Positions 3,001-53,136 of a DNA stretch of 64,000 nt are shown here, piece by piece. The position numbers and the translations under genes were made by a program. The notes under the pieces were generated by a model. That model did not search any database and was not told the DNA's origin. It was given only the letters and a program-made list of their open reading frames with translations. Each line of letters opens with the position of its first letter. Within the stretch, counting starts at the first letter, position 1. The stretch comes from Prostheceraeus crozeri (Eukaryota; Platyhelminthes; Polycladida; Euryleptidae): the NCBI GenBank assembly GCA_907163375.1, contig CAJQUW010005334.1:310001-374000 (forward strand), given 5' to 3'.

Positions 3001-3537
3001 AGTAGGAAGTGATACAGACAGCTTCTTCCTGGCTTTGACAACCACTAGCCAAGTCAAGCCAGGAAGACATTTTAAAATATTTAGCACCCAAGTTTGATAG
3101 TTCCAACTATCCCACTGACCATCCGCTTTACTCTACCACAAATAAAGCGAAGCTTGGCTGCTTCAAGGATGAGTGTGCCGGCAAAGAGATAGAGGAGATG
3201 ATCTTGCTTCGCCCCAAAATGTACTCCATGAAGCTAAAATCCTCAGAGCTTTCTATTAAACGGGCGAAAGGCATCTCGAAGTCAATCGTTAGAAAAATGA
3301 CACAGGGACTATCAAGATGCCTTAGATTCACTTAAAATTAAAAAAGTAGAAATGACTATTTTAAGATCTCAGTCGCATCAAGTCAGAACGACGTTTAGGA
3401 AGCGAGGTCTCTCAGCTTGGGAAGATAAGCGATGCTGGATGAGTCCTAATCACTCACTACCTTATGGCCATCCAGACACACATTTACCACCACCCAAGAG
3501 ACAGAAACTTTCTCCTCCTCCGTCCGGCGATGTTTGA
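1..3537 (+). pseudogene. Protein-primed family B DNA polymerase, copy A, several frameshifts
   Basis: Replicative DNA polymerase with 3'-5' proofreading. Residues before about 800 match the N-terminal region of Maverick polymerases. A CDRC/HHxxxC finger lies near 860-940. Exo I (YADIECYI) is near 1030, a DHCH...CSKC zinc site near 1350, Exo II (FYNFKCYD) near 1430 and Exo III (YLKLD) near 1921. Motif A is YIGQNNLYG near 2195, where the expected metal-binding Asp is Gly (codon 2201-2203). Motif B is KNNALFGKTM near 2720 and motif C DTDS is intact at 3011-3022. Frame breaks lie near 58, 800, 1565, 1800, 2140, 2524, 2880 and 3065. Those near 1800, 2524 and 3065 also occur in copy B. Upstream zinc-finger exons lie outside the window. 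Confidence 0.85.
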
Positions 3538-4665: not shown

Positions 4666-5201
4666 TTAACACGATTCTATTAACTGTGACTCATACAGAT
4701 AACGCATTAAAGATTTAACAATGTCAGCTACTTTACTGATATCACGTAAACCGGTCATGATACAATGTCCGTTGTGAAACACTGCAATATGTATAGGATG
4801 TCACTTCCGAATCAGAGCAGCAGGAAAGAGTTCAGTTTCATAGAATCTACAATTATTACTGGTTTTAATGTTTCCTAGATTCACTAACATCTTCAATTGA
4901 ACAGACACTACTATATTCTTCAATGTCAGGGAACTGCGACGTAGATGAGGCATGAGTGTTCGCATTTTCTTGACTACTTCGTAACACATGGACTGCATCA
5001 CGAAATGAGAAAGGCTTCCTAGGACTTCTATTTTGCCGCAGCGAAAGATTTGAAGATTTCGACCGTTGCGCGAATGACCAACATTTGCGGACGACCGCGA
5101 TGATAGACTGAATCGGGTAGATGGGCGTGCAACTGTTCTAAATCGATGTCTCTTCTGAGATTCATTTCGCGCATGGCGTTGATGATGCGGATAGGGAGCA
5201 T
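4666..5201 (-). pseudogene. TATA-binding-protein-like gene (TBP-L), copy A, broken
   Basis: Counterpart of the intact TBP-like gene at 32667-33206. The ATG at 5201 is chosen by analogy with B; a TATAAAAG box lies 36 nt upstream. Two breaks relative to B: a 4-nt deletion near 5070 that shifts the frame in the first half, and a Trp-to-stop change at about 4801 in the second half. The second TBP repeat is readable before that stop, including the YETELFP segment that matches the highly conserved TBP strand. See the copy B entry for the family argument. Confidence 0.75.
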
Positions 5202-5236
5202 GATTCACAAATGACATGAGGGTTGAGTGAACTTCC

Positions 5237-5244
5237 CTTTTATA
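5237..5244 (-). promoter_or_regulatory. TATA box of TBP-L, copy A
   Basis: TATAAAAG on the minus strand, 36 nt before the TBP-L ATG. Sequence and spacing match copy B (33242-33249). Confidence 0.6.
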
Positions 5245-18046: not shown

Positions 18047-21028
18047 TATATTATGTGTCTCTTTTTAAAATTTCAATGTGCTCTAAAAGAATTCCCCTTT
18101 TGTCCGGCCACGATTATATTGAATGAAGTTAAAAGTTAATATGTTGATAAACGTCAATCAATGTCTTGCTGAGCTTAACATTTTGGCAGGACAGGAAAAA
18201 ATCTTGCGTTCAATTGAAAAACCCTGTCCTGAGTGACTGAGGGGATTGTTTGCTCAGCCGCCTGCATCATAGAAGCCAAGCGAAGTTTATGATACTGAAG
18301 CAGTATCTATTCACGGATGTTTCAGCTCATTCTTTTTTAAAAACAGCCTTTACAATAGATGAGAAGAGTTATGACCGTCCATGCGGTCATTTTGACCACA
18401 TCCTGACCACAATCCACTTTCTCTATGTTTGTCGTCTGCGACAACCAATTTGACATTATGCCATGAAGGTTTCACGGACTTGGAACGTACCCAATTTCAG
18501 CGTAATCAGCTGCCTTGAAAGCATTTGATATCATGTTAATATTTCTCTTACGATGATGAAAATCATCCCAGCAGCCATTTATAATAGAATATAATGCTTA
18601 CTAATCTAAATTATTTATGAAAGTAGTCCTAATAAGGACTGATGGCGTTCTCCAATCCGCAAGTGTACAAAGGCAATGCTGCTGTAACCATTGGATTAAT
18701 CAGTTCTTAAAAGAACTCAATGGAGCTTTCTCGTGGCAACGAATTAAAATTGATCAGCTTTGGCCCAATATCTGGTAAAAATGAAAATCTGAAGACTTGT
18801 AACTCTACTCATTCTTACTGTTAATATACTAATACCATAGATTCCAAACACTGCCGCATGCACGTTCAAAACAGACGTCCAATATACTGTACCGACTACA
18901 GATGCTGATAGTGGAAATAAAATGGGACAATGGTCACCACACGTTAAGGAAATCAAAAATGGATATTATAAAACAACAGTAGACCGATGAATAAAAATTG
19001 GAAAAGTGGAGGTAAAACATGGAAACACAACGATGCTACTACACCGATTACAAGTGAACTATATCTGACAATACACATGGTGGATAATGGTAAGAGTGGA
19101 TAAGTGGAAAGTGGATAATGGAGGTAAACAATAGAGCTACAATGACACTCTACTACACCGAAAGCAATGAAACTATACACACTATCCCTAAGACTACACA
19201 TGGAAAATACTATTTCTTCACTTGAATTTGTTGTCGCCAGTTTCTTCATCCGTCTATAATACTTCATGTAATCCCACATGTCTTCATTTGAAATACAATA
19301 CACTACTTCAGCTACCGATTAAGGGATATAAAACATAATACTGCAGTCCGTCAGTCATCAGCAGGTACTCGTCTAGTTGTGTTTCGACCCCTAACCTGAA
19401 CACTCAAACCCAGACGAGCGGGGTCCCACACATAGTGGCTGACAAAATACTGAATAGGTAATAATATGTCTGTAAAGATATATCACAAAGATAAATCAGA
19501 CATCATTCAATTGCTACGTTTCCCACATGTAAACTCATCCTGTCATTAAATTCATCTCATCAGTAAATACGAGTACAGTATGTTTTTGCAATCCGCACAT
19601 GTAAACAAATCCTGTTCATCAATCTTTGCCTTTTCGATTCCCACAAGTAAACAAATCCTGCTCACCCTCGAATCCCATAAACATGTAATCGTTGTGTGAT
19701 AAATATGTAATCCGACTTTACACAAACTTCGCCTCATACATCAAGACTTAACAATGGGAGCTCTCTCATCTCCCGTAAGCCACTCTAAGCGCTCTGTATT
19801 GACTCTTCACCGCCCACCCTACACAAACCGCCCCCTACCCCTCTATACAAACATGTGGCTTCTCCGGTACCTGTAACCGCAATTCATCGTTTATTTCGGA
19901 AAGAGTGAACTCAGGATGTTCTTTGGTTATTCGCACACTAGTGCGCCACGCCTGCTGTTTAGACCTGCTCTTTGGCCTCCAATCTCACCAGTTTTGCTTC
20001 AATCTGAAAGTTGTTGACGAATTTACATATAGATTGCAGGTATCACTTTGAGAATCATGAATGATGTTCTACTTGAGCCAAGAAATCGGAACATCTGGAT
20101 CGTGTTTTGTATTAATGATCTGACCACAGAATTAAACATTTCGTCTCTTCTTCTGTTTGACTAGAAAGGAAGCATGTAACGTTAATGAAATGGCACAATC
20201 TGCTGACATAATACCATAGCAATCGAACAATAAGCAGCCAATAACAATATCTCTGCAAGGTATTAAAAATGTCTTTTTGCCCACTTAATAAGTTCCTGCA
20301 TGTGCCATTGTTTTGAATCAGTTTGCACTTCTAGCAAAGTGATGCGGTTAAATAATATAATTCTGTGGATCTGACAGACGCGTACACTGAGATGAATTGC
20401 TTTGTCTGCGTGTTTGAGTCTATCTGATAACTTTCCTCAATACCACCGGCTACCACATAGAAATTGATAGCAATAAAACCTCTAGAATGGAGGTAAAGCG
20501 TCATGGAATTCACAATAATGGCACAAAAATCTCACGCATTTTCCCTTTGATAAACTTGTCGACGGCTGAATCATTGGATTAGAATCAGTCACATGTGCAA
20601 TTCTAAGCTTTTCATTGGTGGTTCATGTCCCTACTTCGTTCCTCCGGATGTGCCGCGACCTTGAGCCAATTTCCATTCTAGTCAACTTCAATCTATTTCT
20701 ATGGTCTACCAGGATTATCCGCTCTAGACTAACAGTAGTAATCCCATTGCAGGGCGAAGGCCAGTGCAGTGAAACGATGAGTCATCGCTGCTGAGTCCCA
20801 CCCCTCTGGAAGGAAATGACCAAGGATGTGATGGTGGTGATCGGACCGATTGCAGGAAACCGTTCCCTCCCCTCCCTCCTGTGAGGCTGTTAGGTGTTCG
20901 TCGTTCTCCTATCGTGTTAGTGTAGGTTTTGGACGTTTTGGGATGAGAAAGGCCATATTTCGGGGTGAAGGAGTGCTCGCATGGACAAACCGACCACAGA
21001 TTCGGATTCTACGTGCAATTTTACATCG

Positions 21029-24701: not shown

Positions 24702-26155
24702 TGTAGGGTGTTTTTCAAGTCAATCGGGGAGAAAAAGTTCTGACTCCCCCACTTCTGGACAGTGACTTCAATCTTGACTTGTGAGGATCGTAAAAAGTCG
24801 TGCGATAGCTCGTTTGAAAGCTAAGAGCGAGACAAATTCATTGAACGGCTTGTCTCTACGTTCCTTCGTTTAGGTTTGAGAGCGAAATGTTGATTTTTGG
24901 AAAATCGCGAAAAAACGACAGAGTTAGAATTTTAAGAAAATGTCTCTAACCAAATTTGGAATCCTCGTGACATTTTACAACCGAATAGATAAGTTTTGAG
25001 GGTCGTGGGAGTGAAATAAAATTTTCAAATTTTTTGATTTTTGGCGATGAATAGCGGAGGATTGGAAGTGAGTAAAGACGTCGGGTTTCTTTTGGTGGAA
25101 ACACCGCACTTTGTTCTCTAGGATCCTACATTTCAGATCTGTGGAAGGCTTCGCTTCGAAATGAGAGCTTGTTTAAAATCGAATCTTTACGCATTTTAAA
25201 AGATTTTGGATACTTTGAAAAAATGGCATAGTTTTTTCAACTCGGCTTCTGATGATCGGAGAAAGTTGAGTGATGGCTTAAATGAAAGGTGAGAGCGAGA
25301 AAACGTGACTGTCAAAATTTGAAGCCAATCGGAACTCTAGAACCAGAGATAGAAGCGTTTAAAGTTTACAAAGGCTACACCAGCTGATGTACGAATCCTA
25401 TATAAGCTTGGAACCGAATGAGAAATCTCATTAAGACGAGAGATTGTCAGAGGTAGGTCGTCTCTCCGGAGCTCTGATGACTTAGAAAATTTCATAGCTG
25501 ATATCAGCTAAGGTGTCAGACTTATAGGTTAGCCAGACTATGGCTTGTGATCACTTTCATCAAATACGTCAAATACGTGATAGCTATTGATCAGACCTTC
25601 ATTTACAGACTACCTATAAAATTTCATAAGTAGTGCTAAAAAGTTGAAAAATTTGAATTCGTTATTTTTGGAGGTTTTCTGGGGTTTTCGACCCTGCTGA
25701 AGTCAATGAAGGCATGCATAAGTGTGTGCGAGCAAGTCTTCTCATGTCTTTACATTATACAAGCGGCTTTTCACTCAAAGCGAGCATGGTACGGAGAGTT
25801 TCGCTGTAATATTCCAATGACAGGGTGTTCCTTCGGGACGGCGGATGATGCCGTAGTGATAAGTGTGGCAAGGGAGTGTGTCATATTTTAGACCGAAACC
25901 TCTGGGGCAACTCATGTTGGGCATTTGACACAGTTCTCAACGTAGCACTTTGAACGCCGATTGGTTGAGTCTTAGCTATCTTGTCATGGGTGGCTACTAA
26001 ACATCTCGTTTGCAAAACGCTTGTGAATCACGGCTTGCTATCCCTCTCCACGGTTTGCTATCAAGCTGATCAAAGCAACGACTTGGGATGTTACCTCTAA
26101 AGTATAGTTAGTAAAAAGTAGTCATGAAAAAATACTTTATTTGGTCTTTGATTTA

Positions 26156-28369: not shown

Positions 28370-30995
28370 CCACCACCTGCTGCAGCGAACGAACTCCCTC
28401 TCCTCTCCGTTCAGTCGGTGGAGAGACTGCTGGAGGAACAGGAAATGGAGTTGGAGATAGTGAGAGAGGAGATCGAAACCGAGGAGGAAGGTATTAGGGA
28501 GAGAGATGGAGCTATGGCTCGACAGCTCAGCTGTACAGACTGTGGACAAGTCTTCGCGAGGCCATTCTGCCTTCACCGACTCCGGCATTCTCGCTGCCCA
28601 AAAGCGAAAGGAGGTCTGGAGAAGGCGCGCCGACCGATATCTCAACGGCCCAAGTGTGAAGGTTGTGAACGCACGTTCTACAACAGCACCAACATACAAC
28701 GTCACATCGAAGGTGGCTCCTGTGGCAGTGTGAGGCAACCACCGACGACATCAGGTAGGAAGCATCCTTCATCGTACGTCGGCTTTTCCTGTTCTTCGTG
28801 TCAGAAGACCCTTCCTACAGAGTTTGTTCTTTCTTCACACACTCTGTCACACCCATCCCACAGAGCTTTACACTGACAACACTGTCACTCCAACGCTGAG
28901 CAAGTTTTCCCTTGAGAGGCTCGTTCGCGACTATGAGTTAGAAAGCTGTGAACCTGTAGAAGATATTCATCCTTTCTTGATGAATAATATAGGTTTAATT
29001 CATCAAATGTTGACAAGCTTAGATAGGTTTTTGCTCAAAGGCATGTTCTATCTCACTGCTCGTTTCAATAAGGTAGACAGTAGCACGGGAGAAGTAGAGT
29101 CCACTGTCACCATTAGGATAGCCTCATGTGCTGCTGATCTCATAGGTGATGTAAACGAGCGGATAGAGAGACATGCGACCTATCTCGTCAGCAACTTAAA
29201 TTAATTTTATGAAAGAGATATCGGTTTGGTTTTTGATGGGATAGAGAAAGTAGACATTAAAATCAATCTTTTAGAAAATTTACAAGGGAGCGGCTGTTTC
29301 AGCCTACCCAAAGCACTGGCTAGCAGAAAGGCTGTCATCAATGTAGATTGTCAGTCCCAGTGTTTCAAGTATGCGTACTCTCCATTCCTCACTATGATGA
29401 TATAAGCATGCATCGTCAAAGATTCACCAAGTATTGTGAATGGGAGGATGAGCTTCAGTTCGACGGGCTAGATATCAGCACATTAGATTTTAAGGACATC
29501 ACCCAATTTGAAAAACTCAACAACATTAAGATCGTCGTCCATCTCTGGGAAACGTGGTATTAGGGGTGGCTTAACTTTTGTTAACAAACTTGTTGTAAAC
29601 AACACCCAAGACATATGATCGACCACGCATTTAATGTACATAGGCCAGAATAATTTATATGGGAGTGCATTATCCAAGCCTTTGCCACAGTCTGACTTCC
29701 AATGGGTAAACCCCCATGACATTGAACACTTCTCCAATCCAGCACACATCATGGCACTGGGAGATGAGGCCGACATATGTCATTTATTTAAAATCGATCT
29801 CATCTATCCAGAATGCATTAAGAATAAGACAGTTGATTTTCCACTCGCACCCGAATCTGGCATAGTAAGTCCAGATATGTTCTCTCCCTTTATGGAAGAA
29901 CACAATAAGAAATATGAGGCGCAAAATGACTTAAAATATAAACCCTCTAGGAAGTTGTTGCTCCCAATTGAACAAGCAGCAGTACATCGTGCACTATTCC
30001 ATCCTCAAATTCTATCTAGGTATGGGGATGCAACTTGACAAGGTCCATCGCGCTCTCCAGTTTAGGCAGAAGCCCTGTCTAAAACCATATATAGAGTTTA
30101 ATAGCAAGAAACAAGTTGAATCCAAGAATTTTTTCGAAAAGGACTTCTTTAAATTTAAGAATAATGCCCTCTTTGGCAAAACCATGGAGGATGTAAGAAA
30201 GCGCATGGACTATCGTATAGTGACTGATCTGGAAACGAGTATCAAGTTATGCCTCTCTGCGCTGTTTTGTCACCATGATGTCATTTCTGAAGACATTACT
30301 GGTTTTAAAATGCTAAAATCCAAAGTAGAACTTTGCAAGCCCATTTATGTCGGTCAAGCTGTCTTGGATCACTCCAAGTTAGAAATGCACAAGTTATTTT
30401 ACCACACTTTTAGGTCTTGTCTATTGATCCAACATGTGGAATTAGTAGGAAGTGATACAGTCAGCTTCTTCCTGGCTTTGACAACCACTAGCCAAGTCAA
30501 GCCAGGAAGACATTTTAAAATATTTAGCACCCAAGTTTGATAGCTTCAATCATAGTTTCAACTATCCCACTGACCATCCGCTTTACTCTACCACAAATAA
30601 AGCGAAGCTTGGCTGCTTCAAGGATGAGTGCGCCGGCAAAGAGATAGAGGAGATGATCTTGCTTCGCCCCAAGATGTACTCCATGAAACTAAAATCCTCA
30701 GAGATTTCTATTAAACGGGCGAAAGGCATCTCGAAGTCAATCGTTAGAAAAATGACACAGGGACTATCAAGATGCCTTAGATTCACTTAAAATTAAAAAA
30801 GTAGAAATGACTATTTTAAGATCTCAGTCGCATCAAGTCAGAACGACGTTTAGGAAGCGAGGTCTCTCAGCTTGGGAAGATAAGCGATGCTGGATGAGTC
30901 CTAATCACTCCCTACCTTATGGCCATCCAGACACACATTTACCACCACCCAAGAGACAGAAACTTTCTCCTCCTCCTCCGTCCGGCGATGTTTGA

Positions 30996-32012: not shown

Positions 32013-32623
32013 TGACCTTTTCATCGAGAAGTGTGTGGGTGTCATTTATTCATATCGATGGCGCCTCAAGTCAGACAGCGTGACCTTTTCACCAACAAGT
32101 GTGTGGGTGTCATTTATTCATATCGATGGCGCCTCAAGTCAGACAGCGTGACCTTTTCACCAACAAGTGTGTGGGTGTCATTTAGCGTGACCTTTTCACC
32201 AACAAGTGTGTGGGTGTCATTTATTCATATCGATGGCGCCTCAAGTCAGACAGCGTGACCTTTTCACCAACAAGTGTGTGGGTGTCATTTATTCATATCG
32301 ATGGCGCCTCAAGTCAGACAGCGTGACCTTTTCACCAACAAGTGTGTGGGTGTCATTTATTCATATCGATGGCGCCTCAAGTCAGACAGCGTGACCTTTT
32401 CACCAACAAGTGTGTGGGTGTCATTTATTCATATCGATGGCGCCTCAAGTCAGACAGCGTGACCTTTTCACCAACAAATGTGTGTGGGTGTCATTTATTC
32501 ATATCGATGGCGCCTCAAGTCAGACAGCGTGACCTTTTCACCAACAATTGTGTGGGTGTCACTTATTCATATCGATGGCGCCTCAAGTCAGACAGCGTGA
32601 CCTTTTCACCGACAATTGTGTGG
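32013..32623 (+). repeat. 68-bp minisatellite, about 10 units
   Basis: Nearly identical 68-bp units (gtgaccttttcaccaacaag ... cgatggcgcctcaagtcaga ...), one shortened near 32150-32185. The unit is not a multiple of three, so the repetitive reading frames seen across it are artefacts. The copy A version has about three degenerate units. Confidence 0.95.
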
Positions 32624-32666
32624 GCAATAGTTCATTGGGATGACTCATTCAAAACACATCATGTGA

Positions 32667-33206
32667 TTAACACGATTCTATTAACTGTGACTCAAACAGA
32701 TAACGCATTAAAGATTTAGCAATGTCAGCTACTTTACTGACATCACGTAAACCGGTCATGATACAATGTCCGTTGTGAAACACTGCAATATGTACAGGAT
32801 GCCACTTCCGAATCAGAGCAGCAGGAAAGAGTTCAGTTTCATAAAATATGCCATGATTACTTGTTTTAATGTTGGCTAGATTCACTAACATCTTCAATTG
32901 AACAGACACTACTATATTCTTCAATGTCAGGGGACTGAGACGTAGATGAGGCATGAGTGTTCGCATTTTCTTGACGACTTCGTAACACATGGACTGCATC
33001 ACGAAATGAGAAAGGCTTCCTAGGACTTGGATTTTGCCGCAGTGAAAGAATTGAAGATTTCGACCGTTGCTCATGCGAATGACCAACAATTGTGGATGAC
33101 TGCGATGATACACTGAATCGGGAAGATGGGCGTGCAACTGTTCTAAATTGATGTCTTTTCTGAAATTCATTTCGCGCATGGCGTTGATGATGCGGATGGG
33201 GGACAT
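32667..33206 (-). CDS. TATA-binding-protein-like protein (TBP-L), intact, copy B
   Basis: 179 aa, the size of a bare TBP saddle domain. Two repeats: about residues 2-88 and 93-172. Repeat 1 has a long helix after LHAHLPDSVY, strand LLVIRM, GKIQVLG and a helix to about 85. Repeat 2 has LKNIVVSVQLK, FYETELFPAALIR, AVFHNGHCIMTG and a C-terminal helix. The second repeat tracks canonical TBP position by position. Three of four DNA-intercalating Phe positions seem kept (about F54, F127, F143); the first is Pro-like. It would bind TATA-type promoters in the nucleus, plausibly the element's own. The ATG at 33206 lies 36 nt after a TATAAAAG box. No N-terminal extension. Family call from pattern, not from a search. 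Confidence 0.8.
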   Translation of the reverse strand: MSPIRIINAMREMNFRKDINLEQLHAHLPDSVYHRSHPQLLVIRMSNGRNLQFFHCGKIQVLGSLSHFVMQSMCYEVVKKMRTLMPHLRLSPLTLKNIVVSVQLKMLVNLANIKTSNHGIFYETELFPAALIRKWHPVHIAVFHNGHCIMTGLRDVSKVADIAKSLMRYLFESQLIESC

Positions 33207-33241
33207 GATTCACAAAAGACATGAGGGTTGAGTGAACTTCC

Positions 33242-33249
33242 CTTTTATA
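33242..33249 (-). promoter_or_regulatory. TATA box of TBP-L, copy B
   Basis: TATAAAAG on minus, 36 nt before the ATG. Its presence ahead of a TBP-like gene would allow self-regulation. Confidence 0.6.
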
Positions 33250-33659
33250 CTTTTCCCATGAGGGCTTTGGAATCACGATGTAGCAGTGATCATTATGTAG
33301 AATCCTCTCTTGAATGCGAATAAATACAATGCCTTCTACTAAACTAATCACACGACAAGAGTTGACATTATAGCGCGATGCAACCTTCGTAGTTGAAAGC
33401 GTTCTAGAGTTATCTGAAGTTGACGCTTCACATCATGAAATGTAACACACTGACTTTTCCATGACACATAGAGGCATGCCGATAATTTCTATATGATTAT
33501 TATTTAATACTTAGTGAAGAGCTTCCTCAATGCCTAAGAAAGAAGGAGAGTGGTGTTCATGTGTGGCATGGTGAGTGCAAATTTTTCTTTCTTGATAAGG
33601 TGGCCGTTAGGCCGTGGTCTCATAAAGACCGATGGTGCGTTCTCAGTGTGTAGGGAGTG

Positions 33660-35795
33660 TTACTGTGGTTGATCATCATCAACATGGACATCATTTTTTA
33701 AGGTCATGGAGACAAGATAGGGATTCAACGTAAACAACCCTCCGTTCCTGCGCAGACCCATGTAGATGGTTTAAATTTAAAATTCAAATGAGTAGGTTTG
33801 CAATTGAGTAAGTAGAATTCGCTGCCCTCCTTTTCATGGATGATGAGCCAGTGTCTATCCATATGAACATGCATGTATCTTCTTTCCATGATGGGAACTT
33901 GTGGCCGCTTCCCATTGTGTCGAACAATTTCTTTGGGAAGGGTGGGATTTTCTTTCAGGAATGTTTCAAGAGTATTTTTCAAGAGTTCTGTAAAGTAAAT
34001 TCCAAAGTAACCGCCAAAGTAACTTCGACCGGGTTGTCGTTCTCCTCCTAGTGTATAGCGACAACCACCCAGAATGACATTATTGTGGCATTCCTAAAAT
34101 TTCAAAGTTATACCATCATCAAGCAACCTATGGGAATAATTTTTATTACTGTGATCGTTGTACACGACGTTTCACATCCAAACCATTTTTTGAACACCAT
34201 TACGAGTGGTGCTCTCGGGGTAAACTTCAAATGGAAGTCATGCCCAAAGATAAATTTTATAGGTATGAGGAAATCGGCAATGAGCTCAGTCCCATATGCA
34301 CCATCTATGCGGACATTGAATGTTACATTGAACAAGAAGACCGAACACATGAGCCAGCAGCCATTGCCTGTTATGAAGTATCGCATCGATATTAAAGGAA
34401 TCAAAATAAAATGCATGTGTGGCAAGGCGAGGAGTGCGTTGAAAACTTCCTCAACTTTTCAGATAGGAAAGCCCGTTTTCATCAGCGGTATGAAACGGAG
34501 CTGACTAGGAAAGCCATGTGCTTCAAAGAAGCCGATCAACTCAAATTTGATAGGACCACGGAATGTCCCCGCTGCTGTTCATCCTTTGATGATCAACAAC
34601 ATAAGAAAGTGAGGGACCATTGCCATCTCAGTGGTAAATTTAGGTCTGCCTTATGCAGTAAATGTAATATGAAGCTTAGACTCAAAACGCGAACGCTTCC
34701 CGTCATCTTCTATAACTTTAAATGTTATGATGCTCACATCATCATTCGCCATGGATTCGGTAAAATGAAATCCTGGTCATCCAAAGTGATTGCACAAAGT
34801 AAGGAAAAATTTATGTGAATCACTGCCAAAGTGCAAGTCGACAAAACCGCTGAGGGGAAGCCTGTCTTCTATGACATAAAGTTTCTAGATAGTTTTCAAT
34901 TTATGTCTTCTTACTCTGCCGCGTTAGCTAAAAATTTAGAAACACTTCCCCTCACTCAACATTTAAAGAAAGACTATCCCAACATAAGTGAAAGTCTCAT
35001 GCGACGGAAAAGAGTGTTTCCTTATAGCTATTATAGTTCAATGGAGACATTGAAGGAGACATCCCTTCCGTCTATCCGTCTATCGATAAATTTAAAAATG
35101 ATTTGACGGGTGAGGACTGTTCGCCGGATGAATATAGGCATGCAGAGTAAGCATGGTTAGAATTAAGGTGTCACACTTTTTGGTGACTACATGCTTGCCT
35201 ACTTAAAATTAGACGTCTATCTGTTGGCTGACGTGTTTGAGACTTTTAGGAAAGTCACATTAGAACAGGACATCTTAGACCCCGTCCATTTTGTTAGTCT
35301 ATCGGGTCTGTCCTATCATTCAGCCTTCAAGATGACGAAAGAGAGCATTCATTTACTGCAGGATGCAGAAATGTACACGTTATTTGAACGTGGTATTAGG
35401 GGTGGCTTAACGTTTGTTAACAAACATGTTGTAAACAACACCCAAGAATTGTGTCGAACAATTTCTTTGGGAATGGTGAGATTTTCTTTCAGGAATGTTT
35501 CAAGAGTATTGAATTGTAACCGTGTCCAATAGTCTAACGGTACACATACAACGACACCATACTGTGTTGAGATACCCTTTAGATAACCCATCCGATGACT
35601 TGGTGTTTTTATGGGAACGACTTTTCCGTGATGAGTTATCTTTCATTGAAAGCATTTTCAACCGATGCTAAAGTAAAGGAGTTCAGTGTACCCAGAGTTG
35701 ATGGCTCCGAGCAACTGCATGGTTAGCGCAAGGACGGAAATGATTGCAATGAGCTCAGTCGTCCGTTTTATAACCTCACCTAGCTCCAATCACAT
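33660..35795 (-). pseudogene. Y1, copy B, split by a polB fragment
   Basis: Same gene as 5646-6242. It is interrupted at 33976-35447 by a polB fragment in opposite orientation, with the 62-bp target duplicated (33914-33975 and 35448-35510). There are further small deletions, including the FDLLNCKPLPILGKGFYSFE region at 33793. Non-functional. Confidence 0.8.
33976..35447 (+). pseudogene. Translocated polB fragment inside Y1
   Basis: Corresponds to A 732-2168: the CDRC finger, Exo I, the DHCH/CSKC zinc site, Exo II and Exo III. It is the piece missing from B's own polB; about 60 bp at its downstream end (A 2108-2168) is present in both places. It has an own stop near 34816 and a frameshift near 35090. 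A short stretch of unknown origin (33976-34008) precedes it. Confidence 0.88.
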
Positions 35796-37253: not shown

Positions 37254-38132
37254 TTACAAGATAATACATTGAGTAGGAACTTTACAAGGATGTCTGTCCT
37301 TCAAATAACAAAAGATACATGCAACATGATTGCAATGTATTAATTGAATGTAACGCACAAGACCACGTTTTCCACATTCACTACAAACTAACTGATTAGA
37401 ATACTTAGGTTTCTCTTTGGTGGTAACACCACCTTTCTTTGATACACGACGACGTTTAGGTTTGGTTACAGGTTCTTGACACTCTTTGACACATGAAGCA
37501 ATGACTTTCTTAATGCAACTAAGACCTGTTAATTCAGGCTGATGATGAAATTGAGCAATGCGTAAATTGAGAGAAATCAAATTTCCGTCAGATTAATGAG
37601 GTTCCACATAAACAGCAGGCACCTCAATACGAAAGGAATGAAAGCCTGCACCTACTGTTGACAATTCTGTTTCAACTCACTGTTCAACTGTCACTCCTGA
37701 AGTGACTTTACAATACTTGCTTTGCAAAATGAAGCAGCGAGTGCCGCGATACAAAGGTTTACAATAAGAAGTTTTCTTTTCTGAACACAACTGTAATAGT
37801 TCAATGGGAATAAGAGCCTTTCGTCTCATAACGTCTTCTAAAATGTCAAGCAGTTGATGCAACCAATTATCGATAGGTATACTCAGGTTTTGACCACAAC
37901 GATTTACTTGCGTATCCACTTTTGATAAGTATACCGCTGGCGTTTGAAGATAGAGTCAAACACCGTTGTAGCGCACTTGTTGTTTGTAGGTGGGATAGCC
38001 TTGAATTACCTTTTCAATTTTCGGATTCCACAGCTCGAGATGATGAGGATTCAGTGATGCAGCAGTAAGAGTAGGATTCATGGCCATGGCAGTCTGTAAC
38101 GAAAGAATACCACTAAGTACATACGTGATCAT
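37254..38132 (-). pseudogene. Y2 with RING-like finger, copy B
   Basis: Same gene as 7795-8689. The first ATG of A is ATT here, so the next ATG (38132) is used. It shares the three in-frame stops of A but lacks A's frameshift before the zinc finger, so the finger (CSECGKRG...HCNHVACIFC) is in frame with the Y2 body after the TAA. Confidence 0.55.
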
Positions 38133-38210
38133 CAGAGAAAAGAAAATCCTTGGCTTAGCAGTGACATATGAGGTGGTCCTTAAGAGAACCTTTTGCTGCG
38201 TTCACATGAT

Positions 38211-39565: not shown

Positions 39566-41517
39566 TGGAGAGGGATAGCAAGCCGTGATTCACAAGCGTT
39601 TTGCAATGGAGATGTTTAGTAGCCACCCATGACAAGATAGCTAAGACTCAACCAATCGGCGTTCAAAGTGCTACGTTGAGAACTGTGTCAAATGCCCAAC
39701 ATGAGTTGCCCCAGAGGTTTCGGTCTAAAATATGACACACTCCCTTGCCACACTTATCACTACGGCATCATCCGCCGTCCCGAAGGAACACCCTGTCATT
39801 GGAATATTACAGCGAAACTCTCCGTACCATGCTCGCTTTGAGTGAAAAGCCGCTTGTAAAGACATGAGAAGACTTGCTCGTACACACTTATACATGCCTT
39901 CATTGACTTCAACAGGGTCGAAAACCCCAGAAAACCTCCAAAAATAACGAATTCAAATTTTTCAACTTTTTAGCACTACTTATGAAATTTTATAGGTAGT
40001 CTGTAAATGAAGGTCTGATCAATAGCTATCACGTATTTGACGTATTTGATGAAAGTGATCACAAGCCATAGTCTGGCTAACCTATAAGTCTGACACCTTA
40101 GCTGATATCAGCTATGAAATTTTCTAAGTCATCAGAGCTCCGGAGAGACGACATACCTCTGACAATCTCTCGTCTTAATGAGATTTCTCATTCGGTTCCA
40201 AGCTTATATAGGATTCGTACATCAGCTGGTGTAGCCTTTGTAAACTTTAAACGCTTCTATCTCTGGTTCTAGAGCTCCGATTGGCTTCAAATTTTGACAG
40301 TCACGTTTTCTCGCTCTCACCTTTCATTTAAGCCATCACTCAACTTTCTCCGATCATCAGAAGCCGAGTTGAAAAAACTATGTCATTTTTTCAAAGTATC
40401 CAAAATCTTGTAAAATGCGTAAAGATTCGATTTTAAACAAGCTCTCATTTCGAAACGAAGCCTTCCACAGATCTGAAATGTAGGATCCTAGAGAACAAAG
40501 TGCGGTGTTTCCACCAAAAGAAACCCGACGACTTTACTCACTTCCAATCCTCCGCTATTCATCGCCAAAAATCAAAAAATTTGAAAATTTTATTTCACTC
40601 ACACGACCCTCAAAACTTATCTATTCGGTTGTAAAATGTCACGAGGATTCCAAATCTGGTCTCAGATTTCTCATACGATGCCGCATTCAAAAGGTAGAGC
40701 GATCTTCTTAAAATTTAACTCTGTCGTTTTTTCGCGATTTTCCAAAAATCAACATTTCGCTCTCAAACCTAACCAAACTGAGCAGATATATAAATCTGAA
40801 TAACGGATGAGTGAACTGAACTGTTCTCTTCTGGCGATGTTTGAAATGAGATTGAAGAGGTGAAGTGAAGAAGAAGTCGGGTGAGTTAAGTGAAGAGATC
40901 TGATTACTTAATCTTATCATGGATCACTCCTATCATTGGTGCTAAGTGGTCGTGTGATCGAATCGCTCACACCTGAATATTCCGAAATCTACCGTTCGGT
41001 ATCATATTTGCCGTCAGAGAGACCCGCTCAGTAAAAGATAGAGACCGATCCGGCAACCTTTCATTCTTGATGATCAAACTTCTTCTTTTGAACGAATATT
41101 GCTATAATCATTGGCGACCACGTGGGAAACTCAATATCTGAACAACCAAAATGAACCACCGGTCGCAGCAAAATTTCAAGCGTTGATTGTTTCTTTGCAT
41201 AAAACGTGAGGCTGATCAAGTTCGCCTTTTTATATCTTTGAAAACATTTTACATGGTTGACTTAAGTGGCGAAAAAAGAAAACAGATGCTTTTATATCAC
41301 GAATAATTAAAAGTAGAAAATACTATTCATGGCAAGAGTATTCCGTCAAAAGAAAAAAATATTGAAAGCAAAGATTCCATGATTGCCACGTGGGTTTGAA
41401 GTTGCTACTTGATCGTGGCCGTGTAAAACAATGTAGGCTACTCTTCAATTCGTTTTTGTTTCGGTCTTCCTCATAAAGCTATAGTTAGATAAAAGGATTT
41501 GCTATAGCCCCATTCTA

Positions 41518-43670
41518 TATATATTTGTAGTCTACCAAGTGGTAGGTCACACACAATACAACAATAGGAAAGAAAGAAACAAAGTCAAAGATAACTGCAA
41601 AGTCATTGCTTAAATGTTCGTCACAAACTTCTTCCATTTTTCTCGATCTTCACTCAGACGTTTCAATTCTCCATATGAATTCACCCCGGCTTTCCACTTG
41701 AGATCGTCCAGCCACCTCGCTCGTTTTCTTCCTCTTGTTCTCTTCCCGTTGATCTTCGTTTCAAGGATTTTGGTGAGAATGCCATCGTGTCGGAGTTGGT
41801 GACCCACATAGTTGCCTTTTCGACTCGTGATGGTGTTCAGTAGGCATCGTTTTTCATTTGCTTTCATCAAAATTTCATCATTTGTTACTCTGTCAGTCCA
41901 CTTGATGTTCATAATTCTTCTCCAAAACCACATCTCTGCTGCCTCCAGGTATTTGACGTCACGATGTCTGAGTGTCCAGCTCTCGCAACCGTAAAGAAGG
42001 GTGCTCCAACAGTAGGTCTTTACCATACGCTTCTTGAATTCAATGCTGTTGGATGTCGTGGTCACTTCTTGTACTTTCTTGAAATAGGACTGTTTCGCTT
42101 GAGAGATTCTTGAATTTATGTCTTTCGTACATCGTCCGTCACTTGTTAGAATTGAGCCTAAATACTTGAAATTGACGACTTTTTCCAGAACTTCATTTCC
42201 CACTCGCAATGTGAAAGGAGAAGGCGAATTTGTTTTCGAAAATATCATAACTTTAGTTTTCTTAGTGTTGATCTTCATGCCGTACTTTTCTGCAGTGTCA
42301 TTTAAGCTGTTCATTATGATTTGAAGTCCTCTGAGGCTCGAAGATAACATAGCCTGGTCGTCTGCATATCTAATCGCTGTTGTTCTTTTTCCACACAAAT
42401 TGACTCCGTGATTTGCCACTTTTGAATTTACTTCGTTAGCTAAGAATTGTATATACACATTAAAGAGCATTGGTGATATGATGCATCCTTGACGTACTCC
42501 ACGAAGAATAGGGACTTCTCCAGTGAGATCATTACCTACTTTTATGACTGCTTTCTGATGCTGGTATAACTGTGCTATAATGTTTACTTCAGTTTCATTT
42601 ATTCCAATGCTGACGAGAATGTTCCACAGGGTACTCCAATTGACTCGGTCAAACGCTTTCTCAAAATCTATCATGGCAACAAATAATGATCGATTGGCTT
42701 CGATATATCTTTCACTTAGCGTTCTGATTGCTGTTATTGCATCTCTCGTTCCTCGTTTCGATCTGAAGCCAAACTGATCTTCAGTAAGATGATCTTCTAT
42801 TCTGGTTGTGATTCTTCTTTCGATAATGGCAAGAAGTACTTTTGATGTATGTGAAATCAGACTGATTGTTCTATAGTTCTTGCAGTCGGTAGCACGCACA
42901 GTTTTGGGAATGGGGATCAAAATGATTTTCGTGAAATCTTCGGGCCAGATTCCAGATTCAAGGATTTTGTTGCACATTTGAGCTATCGTTATCGTTCCGA
43001 CATGCTCAAGCCCTTTAATCAATTCAGCTGGGATTTCGTCAACTCCAGGGCTTTTTCCGACTTTCAGTCTTTTTATCCCCATCTCTACTTCGGAATTGAG
43101 AAATGAGTTAACCTCCTGTACTGCATTCTCGGAGATAGGTCTCGGACTGTAATTTGGGTCCCCATATAATTCACCAATAAGTTATACTCTTCCCATCTGT
43201 TTTTCACATCCTCAGGTTCAATCAAGTTTTCTCCAATATTTGACTTGATCATTGTTGATCTGTACGACGGTTTCCGTAGATGTTGTTTGATATTGTAGTA
43301 CGCTTGGTCAGTCTTACTCTCTTTCATCAGTCGTTCAATTTCTTCACAATTTCTTGTCCACCATTCTTCCTTCGATCTTTTGGCATCACGTCTGATTTGA
43401 TTGTGTAGCTCTCGGTATCGTCTCTTTGATTCATCATCCTTCCTTTTTTTGAGTGATCGTCTTTCTTCCATTTTCTTTACTATTTCATTCGTGATGTACG
43501 GCTTACGAGGAATAATTTTCCTGGTACCGATACAAGTGGTTGCACTTGAGATCATCGCTGTTTTTACGTCTTTCCATTCAAATGTGCTGTTTTGAAGCTG
43601 TCGTTCGCATTCTGATTGAAATTTCTTCTTCACTTCGATGTTCGATGTTCTATTTTTTCGATGTTCGAAA
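41518..43670 (-). mobile_element. LINE (non-LTR retrotransposon), 5' truncated
   Basis: Inserted in the left foldback arm with an exact 11-bp target duplication GCCCCATTCTA (41507-41517 and 43671-43681); the right arm shows the empty site near 46363-46373. It lacks the endonuclease end. The short 3' UTR ends in TATATATA on the minus strand rather than poly(A). Confidence 0.92.
41610..43633 (-). pseudogene. Reverse transcriptase of the LINE, endonuclease missing
   Basis: Long open part 43082-41610 (490 aa): KSPGVDEIPAELIK, IPIPK, DFEKAFDRVNW (motif A), LRGVRQGCIISPMLFNVY (motif B), IRYADDQAM (catalytic YADD) and FKYLGSILTSDG, then a basic C-terminal RGRKRARWLDDLK region. Upstream (43633-43085) is the linker between endonuclease and RT, rich in Lys/Arg, with a frameshift near 43140-43180. 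The RT core itself is uninterrupted. Clade not assigned. Confidence 0.9.
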
Positions 43671-44812
43671 GCCCCATTCTAAATGCTTTGTATGGAGTAA
43701 GAACTTTGTTAAAAACACGTCTCACTTCGACACAGACCTATGCTCCTCGCTCTCCTTTCAATGGTTCCCCGTGAACCATCATCCAAGCAGTCAACCTCAA
43801 ATTTTCAAGTCTGCTATTTCAATATAATTTGTATAATTTTGCTGCTTGATCGATTTGCGAATATATTTGCATTTATGTACATACATGCATTACCATATTC
43901 TAAATGGTAGTGAACTAAACACAATTATAATCACAAGTAACAGGTTATGACAATATCACTACTCAACAAGCTTTTTATCTGAAGCTTATAATTCAGCTTT
44001 CAGGCTTACTGAATATCTATCTTATCAGTAGCACTAAATTCCTTCCTGATAATTTAAAGTGCCTAATTTCAGACTGCAGTGACACGAAAACCTCAACCAT
44101 TCAATAGCATGCTCAATCGCTGGCGCAAGATATAGCCCCATATGAATCGCGAAACTAGGATGGATGCTTAGGACCACAGACATGTCTATCTTCTCAAATT
44201 AAAAAGACAAGAAATTCAGTTATTCGTAGCAGCCTTGATTTATTTCTTTTTTCTTTCATAACATTTTTTTTCAAACCTGCTTGCTGTTGATGACTTGACT
44301 TGGAGCATGCGGGTTCCTTCGAATTTTCCTCGCTAAAAAAGATTGTTTCAATGATGAACTGGGAGTCTATGGACACCAAAAAATTCGGTTCGATTCGAGG
44401 ACTCATGCCTCCCCAAAAAAATAGTCACTAGATCTCATGAGAAGGCCGCAGGTGAAACATTCAGGAAGTGAGGAATGCACCTACCATCATCATTCAGTTG
44501 ATTTCGGCATAATTTTGCTTTCCTTTAACACTTAAATCAACTATAATCCAAAGCTATTTAACGGGAAGATTGTATTCACTCCTTTGCTATGCCGACAAAT
44601 GGAATACGATGCTGTGATTACTGATTTTAAATTCACTTCATTGCAATATAAATCGAGTAATTCTCGTGGCAATCTTCAAATTTTCAGACTTGCAAATTTA
44701 CTGCTAAAAAAGAGAAAAGGCTTTACAAGTCTACTTTTTCTGATAGCTCTATTGTTGAATACAACCTTAATTGCGTTTCTATACGACCATAAGACGATGA
44801 ATCTTGCTCAAA

Positions 44813-45517
44813 CCAAATCAAAAGTAGGAAATATGACTCAAGATACTGATAGGATTGGCATCTTGATCTAAAAAAACAAATATTGTTTAGGGAGTCAAGT
44901 CAAGCGGTAATTTCTAAATTAACAGGTTCACCGATGCAACATGCCACAAACTGATGCTTTAGCATAATTGATAATAAAATAATATTACGTGATATTATTT
45001 ATATATCATGGTATATATCATGTAGGCAACCTAGCTGTAGGAGATAAAAGTGCTGAATCCATGAAGATATCACACTTTTCAATTTTAAACAAGCTTTCAT
45101 GATAGTCACAAAACAGTATAAAACTATTTACTGACCAACACATGGCCAGCGAATGGTTTGAGAAATGAACAAATTCAGTGAAGGTCGTCTATACGTGCAT
45201 TACATGCGTCCGATTTCGATCATTTTTTCGGATGATAAATTGGAGGACGTTCTAAAAGAGAAACCGATCTCCAGAAAACGTCTGGCAGTTTGCGGTCTCC
45301 AAGACTCCACAGTGAGCCAGCCATTAGTCGAAAAGTGTGCGTATTTGATTGAAATAGTGAAATCACTTTCCCCAGAACTGCCCTCAGAAACATTGCTGTT
45401 ACGCATAATTCTTTTATTTCAATGTGTGGGCTACAATATCCTGAGTCAATTTTAAGGTTAATATTGCTGACTGAAAGGGACAAAATTGGGGGTCAAGCGA
45501 CTAACCGGTTAATATTT
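44813..45517 (+). other. Unique centre of the foldback element
   Basis: Holds an open frame at 45165-45455 (96 aa, EDVLKEKPISRKRLAVCGL). No family recognised. It starts 45 nt after a tgaccaacacatgg stretch and may be chance or a remnant of a captured exon. Confidence 0.3.
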
Positions 45518-47140
45518 TTGAGCAAGATTCATCGTCTTATAGTCGTATACAAATGCAATTCAGGTTGTATTCACCAATAGAGCTATCAGAAAAAGTAGAC
45601 TTGTAAAGCCTTTTCTCTTTTTTAGCAGTAAATTTGCAAGTCTGAAAATTTGAAGATTGCCACGAGAATTACTCGATTTATATTGCAATGAAGTGAATTT
45701 AAAATCAGTAATCACAGCATCGTATTCCATTTGTCGGCATAGCAAAGGAGTGAATACAATCTGCCCGTTAAATAGCTTTGGATTATAGTTGATTTAAGTA
45801 TTAAAGGAAAGCAAAATTATGCCGAAATCAACTGAATGATGATGGTAGCTGCATTCCTTACTTCCTGAATGTTTCACCTGCGGCCTTCTCATGAGATCTA
45901 GTGACTATTTTCTAGTGCTATCATCTAGTGCTATTGAATGGTTGAGGTTTTCGTGTCACTGCAGTCTGAAATTAGGCACTTTAAATTATCAGGAAGGAAT
46001 TTAGTGCTACTGATAAGATAGATATTCAGTAAGCCTGAAAGCTGAATTATAAGCTTCAGATAAAAAGCTTGTTGAGTAGTGATATTGTCATATTCGCACC
46101 TGTTACTTGTGATTATAATTGTGTTTAGTTCACTACCATTTAGAATATGGTAATGCATGTATGTACATAAATGCAAATATATTCGCAAATCGATCAAGCA
46201 GCAAAATTATACAAATTATATTGAAATAGCAGACTTGAAAATTTGAGGTTGACTGCTTGGATGATGGTTCACGGGGAACCATTGAAAGGAGAGCGAGGAG
46301 CATAGGTCTGTGTCGAAGTGAGACGTGTTTTTAACAAAGTTCTTACTCCATACAAAGCATTTAGAATGGGGCTATAGCAAATCCTTTTATCTAACTATAG
46401 CTTTATGAGGAAGACCGAAACAAAAACGAATTGAAGAGTAGCCTACATTGTTTTACACGGCCACGATCAAGTAGCAACTTCAAACCCACGTGGCAATCAT
46501 GGAATCTTTGTTTTCAATATTTTTTTCTTTTGACGGAATACTCTTGCCATGAATAGTATTTTCTACTTTTAATTATTCGTGATATAAAAGCATCTGTTTT
46601 CTTTTTTCGCCACTTAAGTCAACCATGTAAAATGTTTTCAAAGATATAAAAAGGCGAACTTGATCAGCCTCACGTTTTATGCAAAGAAACAATCAACGCT
46701 TGAAATTTTGCTGCGACCGGTGGTTCATTTTGGTTGTTCAGATATTGAGTCTCCCACGTGGTCGCCAATGATTATAGCAATATTCGTTCAAAAGAAGAAG
46801 TTTGATCATCAAGAATGAAAGGTTGCCGGATCGGTCTCTATCTTTTACTGAGCGGGTCTCTCTGACGGCAAATATGATACCGAACGGTAGATTTCGGAAT
46901 ATTCAGGTGTGAGCGATTCGATCACACGACCACTTAGCACCAATGATAGGAGTGATCCATGATAAGATTAAGTAATCAGATCTCTTCACTTAACTCACCC
47001 GACTTCTTCTTCACTTCACCTCTTCAATCTCATTTCAAACATCGCCCGAAGAACGAAAAGCAAATGAGAACACATTAGGAATGTGAAAACAACAGTTCAG
47101 TTCACTCATCAGTTATTCAAATTTATATATCTGCTCAGTT

Positions 47141-50035: not shown

Positions 50036-53000
50036 GTGGTTTAGTCTAGAGCGGATAATCCTGGTAGACCATAGAAATAGATTGAAGTTGACTAGAATGG
50101 AAGAAATTGGCTCAAGGTCGCGGCACATCCGGAGGAACGAAGTAGGGACATGAACCACCAATGAAAAGCTTAGAATTGCACATGTGACTGATTCTAATCC
50201 AATGATTCAGCCGTCGACTAGTTTATCAAAGGGAAAATGCGTGAGATTTTTGTGCCATTATTGTGAATTCCATGACGCTTTACCTCCATTCTAGAGGTTT
50301 TATTGCTATCAATTTCTATGTGGTAGCCGGTGGTATTGAGGAAAGTTATCAGATAGACTCAAACACGCAGACAAAGCAATTCATCTCAGTGTACACGTCT
50401 GTCAGATCCACAGAATTATATTGTTTAACCGCATCACTTTGCTAGAAGTGCAAACTGATTCAAAACAATGGCACATGCAGGAACTTATTAAGTGGGCAAA
50501 AAGAAATTTTTAATACCTTGCAGAGATATTGTTATTGGCTGCTTATTGTTCGATTGCTATGGTATTATGTCAGCAGATTGTGCCATTTCACTAACGTTAC
50601 ATGTTTCCTTTCTAGTCAAACAGAAGAAGAGACGAAATGTTTAATTCTGTGGTCAGATCATTAATACAAAACACGATCTAGATGTTCCGATTTCTTGGCT
50701 CAAGTAGAACATCATTCATGATTCTCAAAGTGACACCTGCAATCTATATGCAAATTCGTCAACAACTTTCAGATTGAAGCAAAACAAGCGCGAAACAAGA
50801 TCTGTCTATTGAACAGGAGTCGCCTTTTTCAATTCCCACCTCGATGTCAGAGATTATTGTGAGATAGAACACAGGCATTGCACGTGGTACGCCTATACCA
50901 CATAATCAGCCGGCTCCAAATCTATCATAGAAATAAACTGTTCATCTGAAGCTCGCTAGAATGGAAATTGACTGAAGGTCGCGGCACATCCGAGGGAACT
51001 AAGTTGGGGCATGAAGAACCAATTAAAAGCTTCGATTTACTCATGTGACTGATTCTGACCCAATGATGCAGACGTTGGCAGGTGCATCTAAGTGAAAATG
51101 CGTGCGATTTATGTGCCGTTATTGTGCATTGCATGAAGCTTAATTTCCATTCTAGAGGTTTTTTATTGCTGTCAATTTCTATGAAATCTATGGTGAGATT
51201 GGAGGCCAAAGAGCAGGTCTAAACAGGAGGTGTGGCGATGACACGATGATTGAAACACCAGTGTGCGAATAACCAAAGAACATCCTGAGTTCACTCTTTC
51301 CGAAATAAACGATGAATTGCGGTTACAGGTACCGGAGAAGCCACATGTTTGTATAGAGGGGTAGGGGGCGGTTTGTGTAGGGTGGGCGGTGAAGAGTCAA
51401 TACAGAGCGCTTAGCGTGGCTTACGGGAGATGAGAGAGCTCCCATTGTTAAGTCTTGATGTATGAGGCGAAGTTTGTGTAAAGTCGGATTACATATTTAT
51501 CACACAACGATTACATGTTTATGGGATTCGGGGATGAGCAGGATTTGTTTACTTGTGGGAATCGAAAAGGCAAAGATTGATGAACAGGATTTGTTTACAT
51601 GTGCGGATCGCAAAAACATACTGTACTCGTATTTACTGATGAGATGAATTTAATGACAGGATGAGTTTACATGTGGGAAACGTAGCAATTGAATGATGTC
51701 TGATTTATCTTTGTGATATATCTTTACAGACATATTATTACCTATTCAGTATTTTGTCAGCCACTATGTGTGGGACCCCGCTCGTCTGGGTTTGAGTGTT
51801 CAGGTTAGGGGTCGAAACACAACTAGACGAGTACCTGCTGATGACTGATGGACTGCAGTATTATGTTTTATATCCCTTAATCGGTAGCTGAAGTAGTGTA
51901 TTGTATTTCAAATGAAGACATGTGGGATTACATGAAGTATTATAGACGGATGAAGAAACTGGCGACAACAAATTCAAGTGAAGAAATAGTATTTTCCATG
52001 TGTAGTCTTAGGGATAGTGTGTATAGTTTCATTGCTTTCGGTGTAGTAGAGTGTCATTGTATAGTTCTATTGTTTACCTCCATTATCCATTTTCCACTTA
52101 TCCACTCTTACCATTATCCATCATGTGTATTGTCAGATATAGTTCACTTGTAATCGGTGTAGTAGCATCGTTGTGTTTCCATGTTTTACCTCCACTTTTC
52201 CAATTTTTATTCATCGGTCTACTGTTGTTTTATAATATCCATTTTTGATTTCCTTAACGTGTGGTGACCATTGTCCCATTCTATTTCCACTATCAGCATC
52301 TGTAGTCGGTACAGTATATTGGACGTCTGTTTTGAACGTGCATGCGGCAGTGTTTGGAATCTATGGTATTAGTATATTAACAGTAAGAATGAGTAGAGTT
52401 ACAAGTCTTCAGATTTTCATTTTTACCAGATATTGGGCCAAAGCTGATCAATTTTAATTCGTTGCCACGAGAAAGCTCCATTGAGTTCTTTTAAGAACTG
52501 ATTAATCCAATGGTTACAGCAGCATTGCCTTTGTACACTTGCGGATTGGAGAACGTCATCAGTCCTTATTAGGACTACTTTCATAAATAATTTAGATTAG
52601 TAAGCATTGTATTCTATTATAAATGGCTGCTGGGATGATTTTCATCATTGTATGAGAAATATTAACATGATATCAAATGCTTTCAAGGCAGCTGATTACG
52701 CTGAAATTGGGGACGTTCCAAGTCCGTGAAACCTTCATGGCATAATGTCAAATTGGTTGTCGCAGACGACAAACATAGAGAAAGTGGATTGTGGTCAGGA
52801 TGTGGTCAAAATGACCGCATGGACGGTCATAACTCTTCTCATCTATTGTAAAGGCTGCTTTTAAAAAAGAATGAGCTGAAACATCCGTGAATAGATACTG
52901 CTTCAGTATCATAAACTTCGCTTGGCTTCTATGATGCAGGCGGCTGAGCAAACAATCTCCTCAGTCACTCAGGACAGGGTTTTTCAATTGAACGCAAGAT

Positions 53001-53136
53001 TTTTTCCTGTCCTGCCAAAATGTTGAGCTAAGCAAGACATTGATTGACGTTTATCCATCATTTATTTTTCATGCTTAAATTAAACTTACATTGTAAATCT
53101 CTTGTCTTTTTCACTTTAAAAATAGTTCTGGAATTG

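Follow-up and report, generated by a model that had tools for sequence, protein, structure and literature searches.

A TATA-binding protein gene carried by polB elements in the genome of the flatworm Prostheceraeus crozeri

In the literature searched, the nearest known carriers of a TATA-binding protein (TBP) are giant viruses, mirusvirus-related elements, and herpesviruses. PMC7221094 describes two C-lobe glutamates of TBP as contacts to TFIIB/TFB and reports that many viral TBPs are without these glutamates, a TFIIB-like gene being present in nearly all of these viruses. For the herpesvirus KSHV, PMC12529657 presents ORF24 as a mimic of TBP that acts in the nucleus to redirect Pol II and that lacks the TFIIB glutamates. 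Integrated mirusvirus-related elements of Cymbomonas, which resemble the elements described here in this respect, carry TATA-binding protein genes sporadically, according to PMC10675990. No TBP-bearing animal Polinton or adintovirus was found in the literature searched, an absence that holds for the papers covered and is not proof of novelty; similarly, the available text of PMC4028283, PMC8363768, PMC11071296, and PMC11071308 contains no mention of a TBP gene with an overlapping partner gene (ORF-X, see below) beside a Polinton protease.

Here, a window of 64,000 nucleotides from Prostheceraeus crozeri (contig CAJQUW010005334.1, positions 310,001 to 374,000 of the forward strand) was analyzed, in which an earlier note, made from the sequence alone, had proposed that a virus-like polB element carries a gene with the two-repeat layout of TBP. 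The gene, an ATG-to-stop frame of 179 aa at 32667–33206 of the window on the minus strand, is part of an element copy designated copy B (family I). The Pfam profile PF00352 recovers both repeats, matching the frame in two stretches with 73.9 bits against a curated cut-off of 22.9 (E 9.1e-21), and the proposed GKxxxxG and YETELFP-type segments are found where the note had placed them, as GKIQVLG and YETELFP. A phmmer search of PDB sequences returned 35 distinct matches, all of them TBPs or TBP fusions (one is named only ECU04_1440 protein), with a best E-value of 4.4e-10; a profile built from seven element TBPs, all seven of which match PF00352, likewise returned 35 TBP or TBP-fusion matches, the best at 2.6e-19 over nearly the whole length. 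The predicted structure of the element TBP is a TBP saddle, and all 44 significant Foldseek matches in the PDB are TBPs, with the C-terminal stirrup poorly modelled (pLDDT <50 at 119–129). By profile and by predicted fold, the ORF is thus a genuine TBP, and the same matches rule out a chance resemblance. Giant-virus TBPs (Heterosigma akashiwo virus, Mimiviridae), which share a virus-encoded TBP fold with it, rank after the top match in BFVD; the note had also pointed to TBP homologues in some large DNA viruses.

The 2.05-Gb host genome contains at least 150 close copies of the window TBP; 146 of the 150 listed have no internal stops, and, the window copy aside, they are 89–92% identical among the matches listed. 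Because the listed copies were picked by TBP similarity, their intactness is biased upward; the unselected neighbours in 30 fetched loci are also mostly full-length (Y1 in 23 and ORF-X in 28 of the 30), which argues for recent spread. Among the matches listed (at least 150), a genome search with PF00352 returned the host TBP exon (123.7 bits), a gene which we take to be TRF2-like, and further element TBPs. The latter define family II (L034, L035, L039, and L046), family III (L040–L044, L048, L049, L051, and L052), and family IV (L045, L053, and L055–L062). Element TBPs are 92% identical within family I, 38–54% identical between families, and 21–25% identical to host TBP, the figures for family IV being taken from its open TBP piece. 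Decayed relatives of family IV at 50–64% identity suggest long residence. In an 11-row tree, for which the program warns of long branches, the eight element TBPs lie on one side of a branch supported at 100/100, opposite host TBP, the TRF2-like gene, and archaeal TBP. Presence in four divergent element families, as judged from sequence comparison, indicates that the TBP is no one-off capture, and the link between TBP and polB-type elements goes further than the note had claimed, since three more families, Polinton-looking, hold the gene at one conserved place. Searches of IMG/VR with the TBP, the penton, the integrase alignment, and the TBP, MCP, and polB alignments found no relatives, and a scan of prokaryote genomes found archaeal TBP only. 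In L037 and in pairs on contigs C2494, C12493, C1944, and C2643, two TBP genes stand in opposite orientation about 4–7 kb apart; these are head-to-head part copies of the element.

Among the relatives, the family II locus L039 reads, in order, polB C-terminus, minor-capsid-like, penton-like, ORF-X/TBP, protease, MCP-like, basic protein, integrase, PX-like, and ATPase-like. Locus L052 (family III) has the same gene set and order, and in L053 (family IV) the penton and minor capsid genes are inverted relative to the MCP gene. In all three loci, the TBP gene adjoins the protease gene and is convergent with it. The L039 protease matches Peptidase_C48 (8.4e-05) and has homologues in L052 and L053, corresponding to an adenovirus-type cysteine protease; the L039 integrase matches rve (1.5e-13) and chromo (1.5e-07), its L052 counterpart is 62% identical to it, and only a C-terminal part was found in L053. 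The names MCP, penton, PX, and ATPase are presumptive, since they were assigned by gene order and by a P-loop visible in the sequence; none of these frames has a Pfam match, and the MCP-, penton-, and ATPase-like frames are conserved among the three loci. For polB, L039 has a C-terminal part with the motif GGDTDSFF and no Pfam match, and a homologous piece of the window matches DNA_pol_B_2 at 0.0033, under the cut-off. In sharing an rve integrase, a C48-type protease, capsid-like and ATPase-like frames, and polB with Polinton/Maverick elements and adintoviruses, the elements of families II–IV look like capsid-bearing Polintons at the sequence level, and their gene set agrees with the Polinton list in PMC4028283. 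Unlike Polintons, they have TBP and, family IV aside, ORF-X between the protease and the penton or minor capsid genes. Frames beside polB in L053 (8291–9400) look dUTPase-like by eye.

The window itself contains two copies of the family I element, which are 81–97% alike, segment by segment, by self-BLAST. Copy A spans 1 to about 9,980 and probably continues left of the window. Copy B is enclosed by inverted repeats at 24870–26050 (plus strand) and 39566–40772 (minus strand), which are alike at 98.2% over 1,102 columns and 94.9% over a further 79. As the note had claimed, the TBP gene belongs to a polB element, and both polB and Y1 of copy B are broken. The polB pieces of copy B at 28902–30989 (plus), identified by tblastn with the family II polB and the N-terminal frame of copy A, are spread over several frames and lack the central block, which stands instead at 34009–35447 (plus) and corresponds to copy A 732–2169 (96.8% over 1,440 columns). 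This 1.44-kb block, which matches Endonuclease_7 (9.8e-07) and DNA_pol_B_2 (the match under its cut-off cited above), is in place among the copy A polB pieces (30–3531, plus; frames and tblastn) whereas in copy B it interrupts the Y1 gene, which is in three pieces (33585–35789, minus). Short duplicated stretches border the displaced block. A piece of the Z gene was found by tblastn at 37746–38201 (minus), and an array of 68-nt repeats occupies 32013–32624 between TBP and polB. The TBP gene of copy A is broken: tblastn with the family II TBP detects it at 4678–5192 (minus) as two overlapping pieces (5192–5046 and 5082–4678), and a 192-aa ORF at 4801–5379 matches only half a repeat (PF00352 2.2e-05). 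One family I copy, in L038 (5591–9483), is interrupted by a stretch of ~3.7–3.9 kb that contains a 281-aa frame and is bounded by inverted ends of 172 nt (97.7%).

The window element shares polB, TBP, and ORF-X with families II and III. In tblastn searches of the window, L037, L038, and L054 (E <= 1e-3), no homologue of the family II capsid, protease, integrase, or ATPase was found, copy B lying between its inverted repeats. Because no such homologue was found, the family I element is best described, from its gene content, as a related polB-TBP element and not as a canonical Polinton or adintovirus. Family I has its own set of paralogues: one module is present four times, including once at the polB N-terminus, and Z and Y1 form a related pair; a diverged capsid may be among these paralogous genes.

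ORF-X overlaps the TBP gene in families I, II, and III, and family IV has neither ORF-X nor the TATA-initiator pair described below. In copy B it occupies 32866–33432 (minus), with a damaged N-terminal part and residues 46–209 of 209 open. The note had regarded TBP as the one intact core gene of copy B, which is correct among the genes that it named and incomplete in that ORF-X is also open. Such a frame remains open in 0.01–0.055% of 20,000 codon permutations per gene. A structural model built from its relatives resembles PUR-alpha, with families absent from the VIA list not counted as excluded, and ORF-X is accordingly a candidate member of the PUR/Whirly/PC4 group, whose PUR-like domain is made of two beta-beta-beta-beta-alpha repeats; nothing in Pfam reached a cut-off, and PDB sequences gave no match of note. 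The dS of TBP shows no consistent reduction inside the overlap. In three family III loci (L041 173–1048, L042 185–1060, and L051 251–1126), ORF-X and TBP are joined in a single frame of 292 aa, and the copies differ at the point of fusion; 292-aa frames occur at other places too.

Between families I and II, the dN/dS of TBP is about 0.32–0.39, indicating that the element TBP is under purifying selection at this distance; for other family pairs, dS is saturated. The window TBP compared with 29 other copies gives a pN/pS near 0.5, a value that decay of a copy following its insertion would produce. Within the set of the 29 best copies, pN/pS is 0.066 for TBP, 0.49 for Y1, and 0.66 for ORF-X, and since the TBP value is partly an effect of how the copies were selected, strong purifying selection within the family is not claimed.

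Upstream of the copy B TBP gene, a TATAAAAGG box is located at 33241–33249 (minus), 43 nt before the ATG, followed by an initiator at 33215–33219 that reads TCTTT in copy B and TCATT in copy A and most relatives; the corresponding pair before the copy A TBP lies at 5210–5244 (minus). The combination TATAAAAGG-N21-TCATT precedes TBP at loci of families I, II, and III, including 26 of the 30 loci L001–L030, and this TATA-initiator pair lies inside the ORF-X coding sequence. The notion that the TATA and initiator codons are more frozen than the rest of ORF-X was rejected, as 18 of the 29 residues identical in the three families share their codon anyway. The window contains six TATA-initiator pairs at the right spacing, all of them within the two copies: two in copy A (0.12 expected by shuffling), four in copy B (0.18), and none in the rest of the window (0.73). 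They stand before TBP in copy A, at Y1 in copy B (35772, where the initiator falls after the first ATG), ahead of Z in both copies (38576 in copy B), and, facing inward, in both inverted repeats of copy B (25399 and 40210). Because the pattern was chosen after the TBP promoter had been seen, the TBP site is not independent evidence and the other sites are, with the reservation that copies A and B are related to each other and to L038, which has three pairs versus 0.17 by shuffling, and that one inverted repeat duplicates the other. Pairs are not above shuffling in the capsid-bearing loci (one versus 0.41 in L039, one versus 0.20 in L052, none in L053), and in families II and III a pair is present before TBP only. 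The TATA boxes that the note had seen before several element genes hold for copies A and B in the form of TATA-initiator pairs. Counting TATAWA by itself gives a weak signal, with 6 of 24 upstream windows of fetched copies against about 2.6 expected. Before 17 virion-type genes, TATAWA is not enriched (2 of 17 versus 1.0 expected), and the herpes-like TATTWAA was discarded as a candidate (0 of 17).

Genome-wide, exact TATAAAAGG-N21-TCATT occurs 6,272 times, versus 1,686 times for a reversed control, from which the copy number of TBP elements is indirectly estimated as probably in the thousands; of the first 100 places listed, 88 are family III-type and 12 carry family I letters, by eye. A different word, AAGCAA, was found within 90 nt before six of nine genes of L039 (minor2, penton, MCP, basic, INT, and PX), with one site per gene 33–47 nt before the ATG and only 11 occurrences on both strands of the 9.9-kb locus; it is not found before the protease, ORF-X, or TBP of L039, nor before any of nine genes in L052. 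The word was picked by scanning 6-mers post hoc, its p of 3.4e-07 being uncorrected for the ~4,000 words and for data reuse, and AAGCAA is therefore only a lead to a family II promoter motif.

TBP typically has two pairs of DNA-intercalating phenylalanines, which are variable in TBP-related factors. Element TBPs are like cellular and archaeal TBPs in their two-repeat saddle (PF00352), in three of the four intercalating phenylalanines, and in both TFIIB-contact glutamates, which are kept in all four element families; YE-x-ELFP is invariant in all seven aligned rows. They are unlike cellular TBP in being element-borne, in their low identity to the host protein, in helix 2 of the N-lobe, where the majority of the basic residues (R-LAAR-KYAR in host TBP) are replaced, and in the first N-lobe phenylalanine, which is a proline in all families, so that DNA binding may differ. 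With the register to human numbering assigned here, these residues predict that the protein recruits TFIIB, contacts DNA in an altered way, and is controlled less strongly by partners of the N-lobe. In retaining the glutamates, element TBPs differ from many viral TBPs, and no TFIIB or RNA polymerase family was found among the element frames given to Pfam, which represent part of the elements. KSHV ORF24, as described in PMC12529657, differs in being a domain of a larger protein, in having all four phenylalanines, and in reading TATTWAA; its traits are thus not those of the element TBP, which keeps the glutamates and is carried by elements with no TATTWAA before their 17 virion-type genes. The kept glutamates point to the use of host TFIIB and Pol II; the self-contained promoter-recognition system suggested in the note is not supported.

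The explanation considered likely is that an old, element-borne TBP serves as the promoter-recognition factor of a polB element lineage and recruits host TFIIB and Pol II, in keeping with the retention of TBP in family I, in which no homologue of a capsid gene was found. The promoter nested in ORF-X would first be used by host TFIID and Pol II to make TBP mRNA; the element TBP would then bind element core promoters and, by way of its C-terminal stirrup, bring in TFIIB and Pol II of the host. With most of the basic surface of its N-lobe lost, it would be less accessible to N-lobe partners such as TFIIA, TAF1, and Mot1, and transcription would be biased towards the element. Single-stranded DNA at promoters or origins may be the target of the PUR/Whirly/PC4-like protein of the overlapping gene. 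A fuller scenario, possible yet doubtful, is that TBP and this overlapping PUR/PC4-like single-strand-binding protein form a two-gene module of a Polinton lineage that works as a temporal switch, TBP being made from a host-type nested promoter and then, largely released from host control through the N-lobe, driving a separate element promoter class (AAGCAA in family II), and that a capsid-less descendant kept the module and spread as a transposon.

Retained TFIIB-contact glutamates, next to a changed N-lobe surface and one changed kinking phenylalanine, would also suit a decoy that, instead of driving element promoters, dampens host transcription or defence by titrating TFIIB or by occupying TATA boxes of the host, as would the lack of TATA enrichment before virion-type genes; this is judged unlikely, given that TATA-initiator pairs are enriched before family I genes and that the TBP gene is kept in a family that shows no capsid homologue. 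Since the TBP is carried by polB replicons and each inverted repeat of copy B has one TATA-initiator pair, a DNA-bending, architectural role in protein-primed replication, packaging, or integration at the inverted repeats can be envisaged, but such a role gives the TFIIB-contact residues no reason to stay and appears quite improbable. The host genome does have a TBP exon and a TRF2-like gene from which a passenger could have been taken. However, recent capture of either is rejected on the identities (21–25% to host TBP versus 38–54% between element families) and on the tree, in which element TBPs share one branch at 100/100; together with the same gene place in three element families and a dN/dS below 0.4 between families I and II, this makes a passenger gene very improbable. 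If a promoter factor for the element lineage is the correct explanation, a Polinton-type mobile element supplies a core-promoter factor of its own and continues to depend on the host for TFIIB and Pol II, so that such elements may steer the host transcription machinery to their own genes and offer a small, testable system for the redirection of Pol II by a parasite. The elements would also provide a single genome with a great many additional TBP-related frames. The finding further bears on the movement of transcription genes within the network of Polintons, adenoviruses, and giant viruses.

Other features were observed in the window outside copies A and B. An inverted pair at 18146–20732 and 50041–53055, with 98–99% likeness across 1.8 kb and 0.74 kb, encloses the whole of copy B from some way off and perhaps represents the ends of a larger insertion. 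The region 40827–47052 has a palindrome-like layout with a 490-aa reverse transcriptase frame at 41610–43082 (RVT_1 8.7e-40). A 400-aa frame at 10761–11963 matches a TNP-like GTP-binding insertion domain (2.4e-05), a signature of P-element-type transposases. Finally, a single 382-aa frame at 13586–14734 matches pantothenate kinase (Fumble 2.2e-26) and, being uninterrupted, is perhaps a retrocopy or an intron-poor gene.
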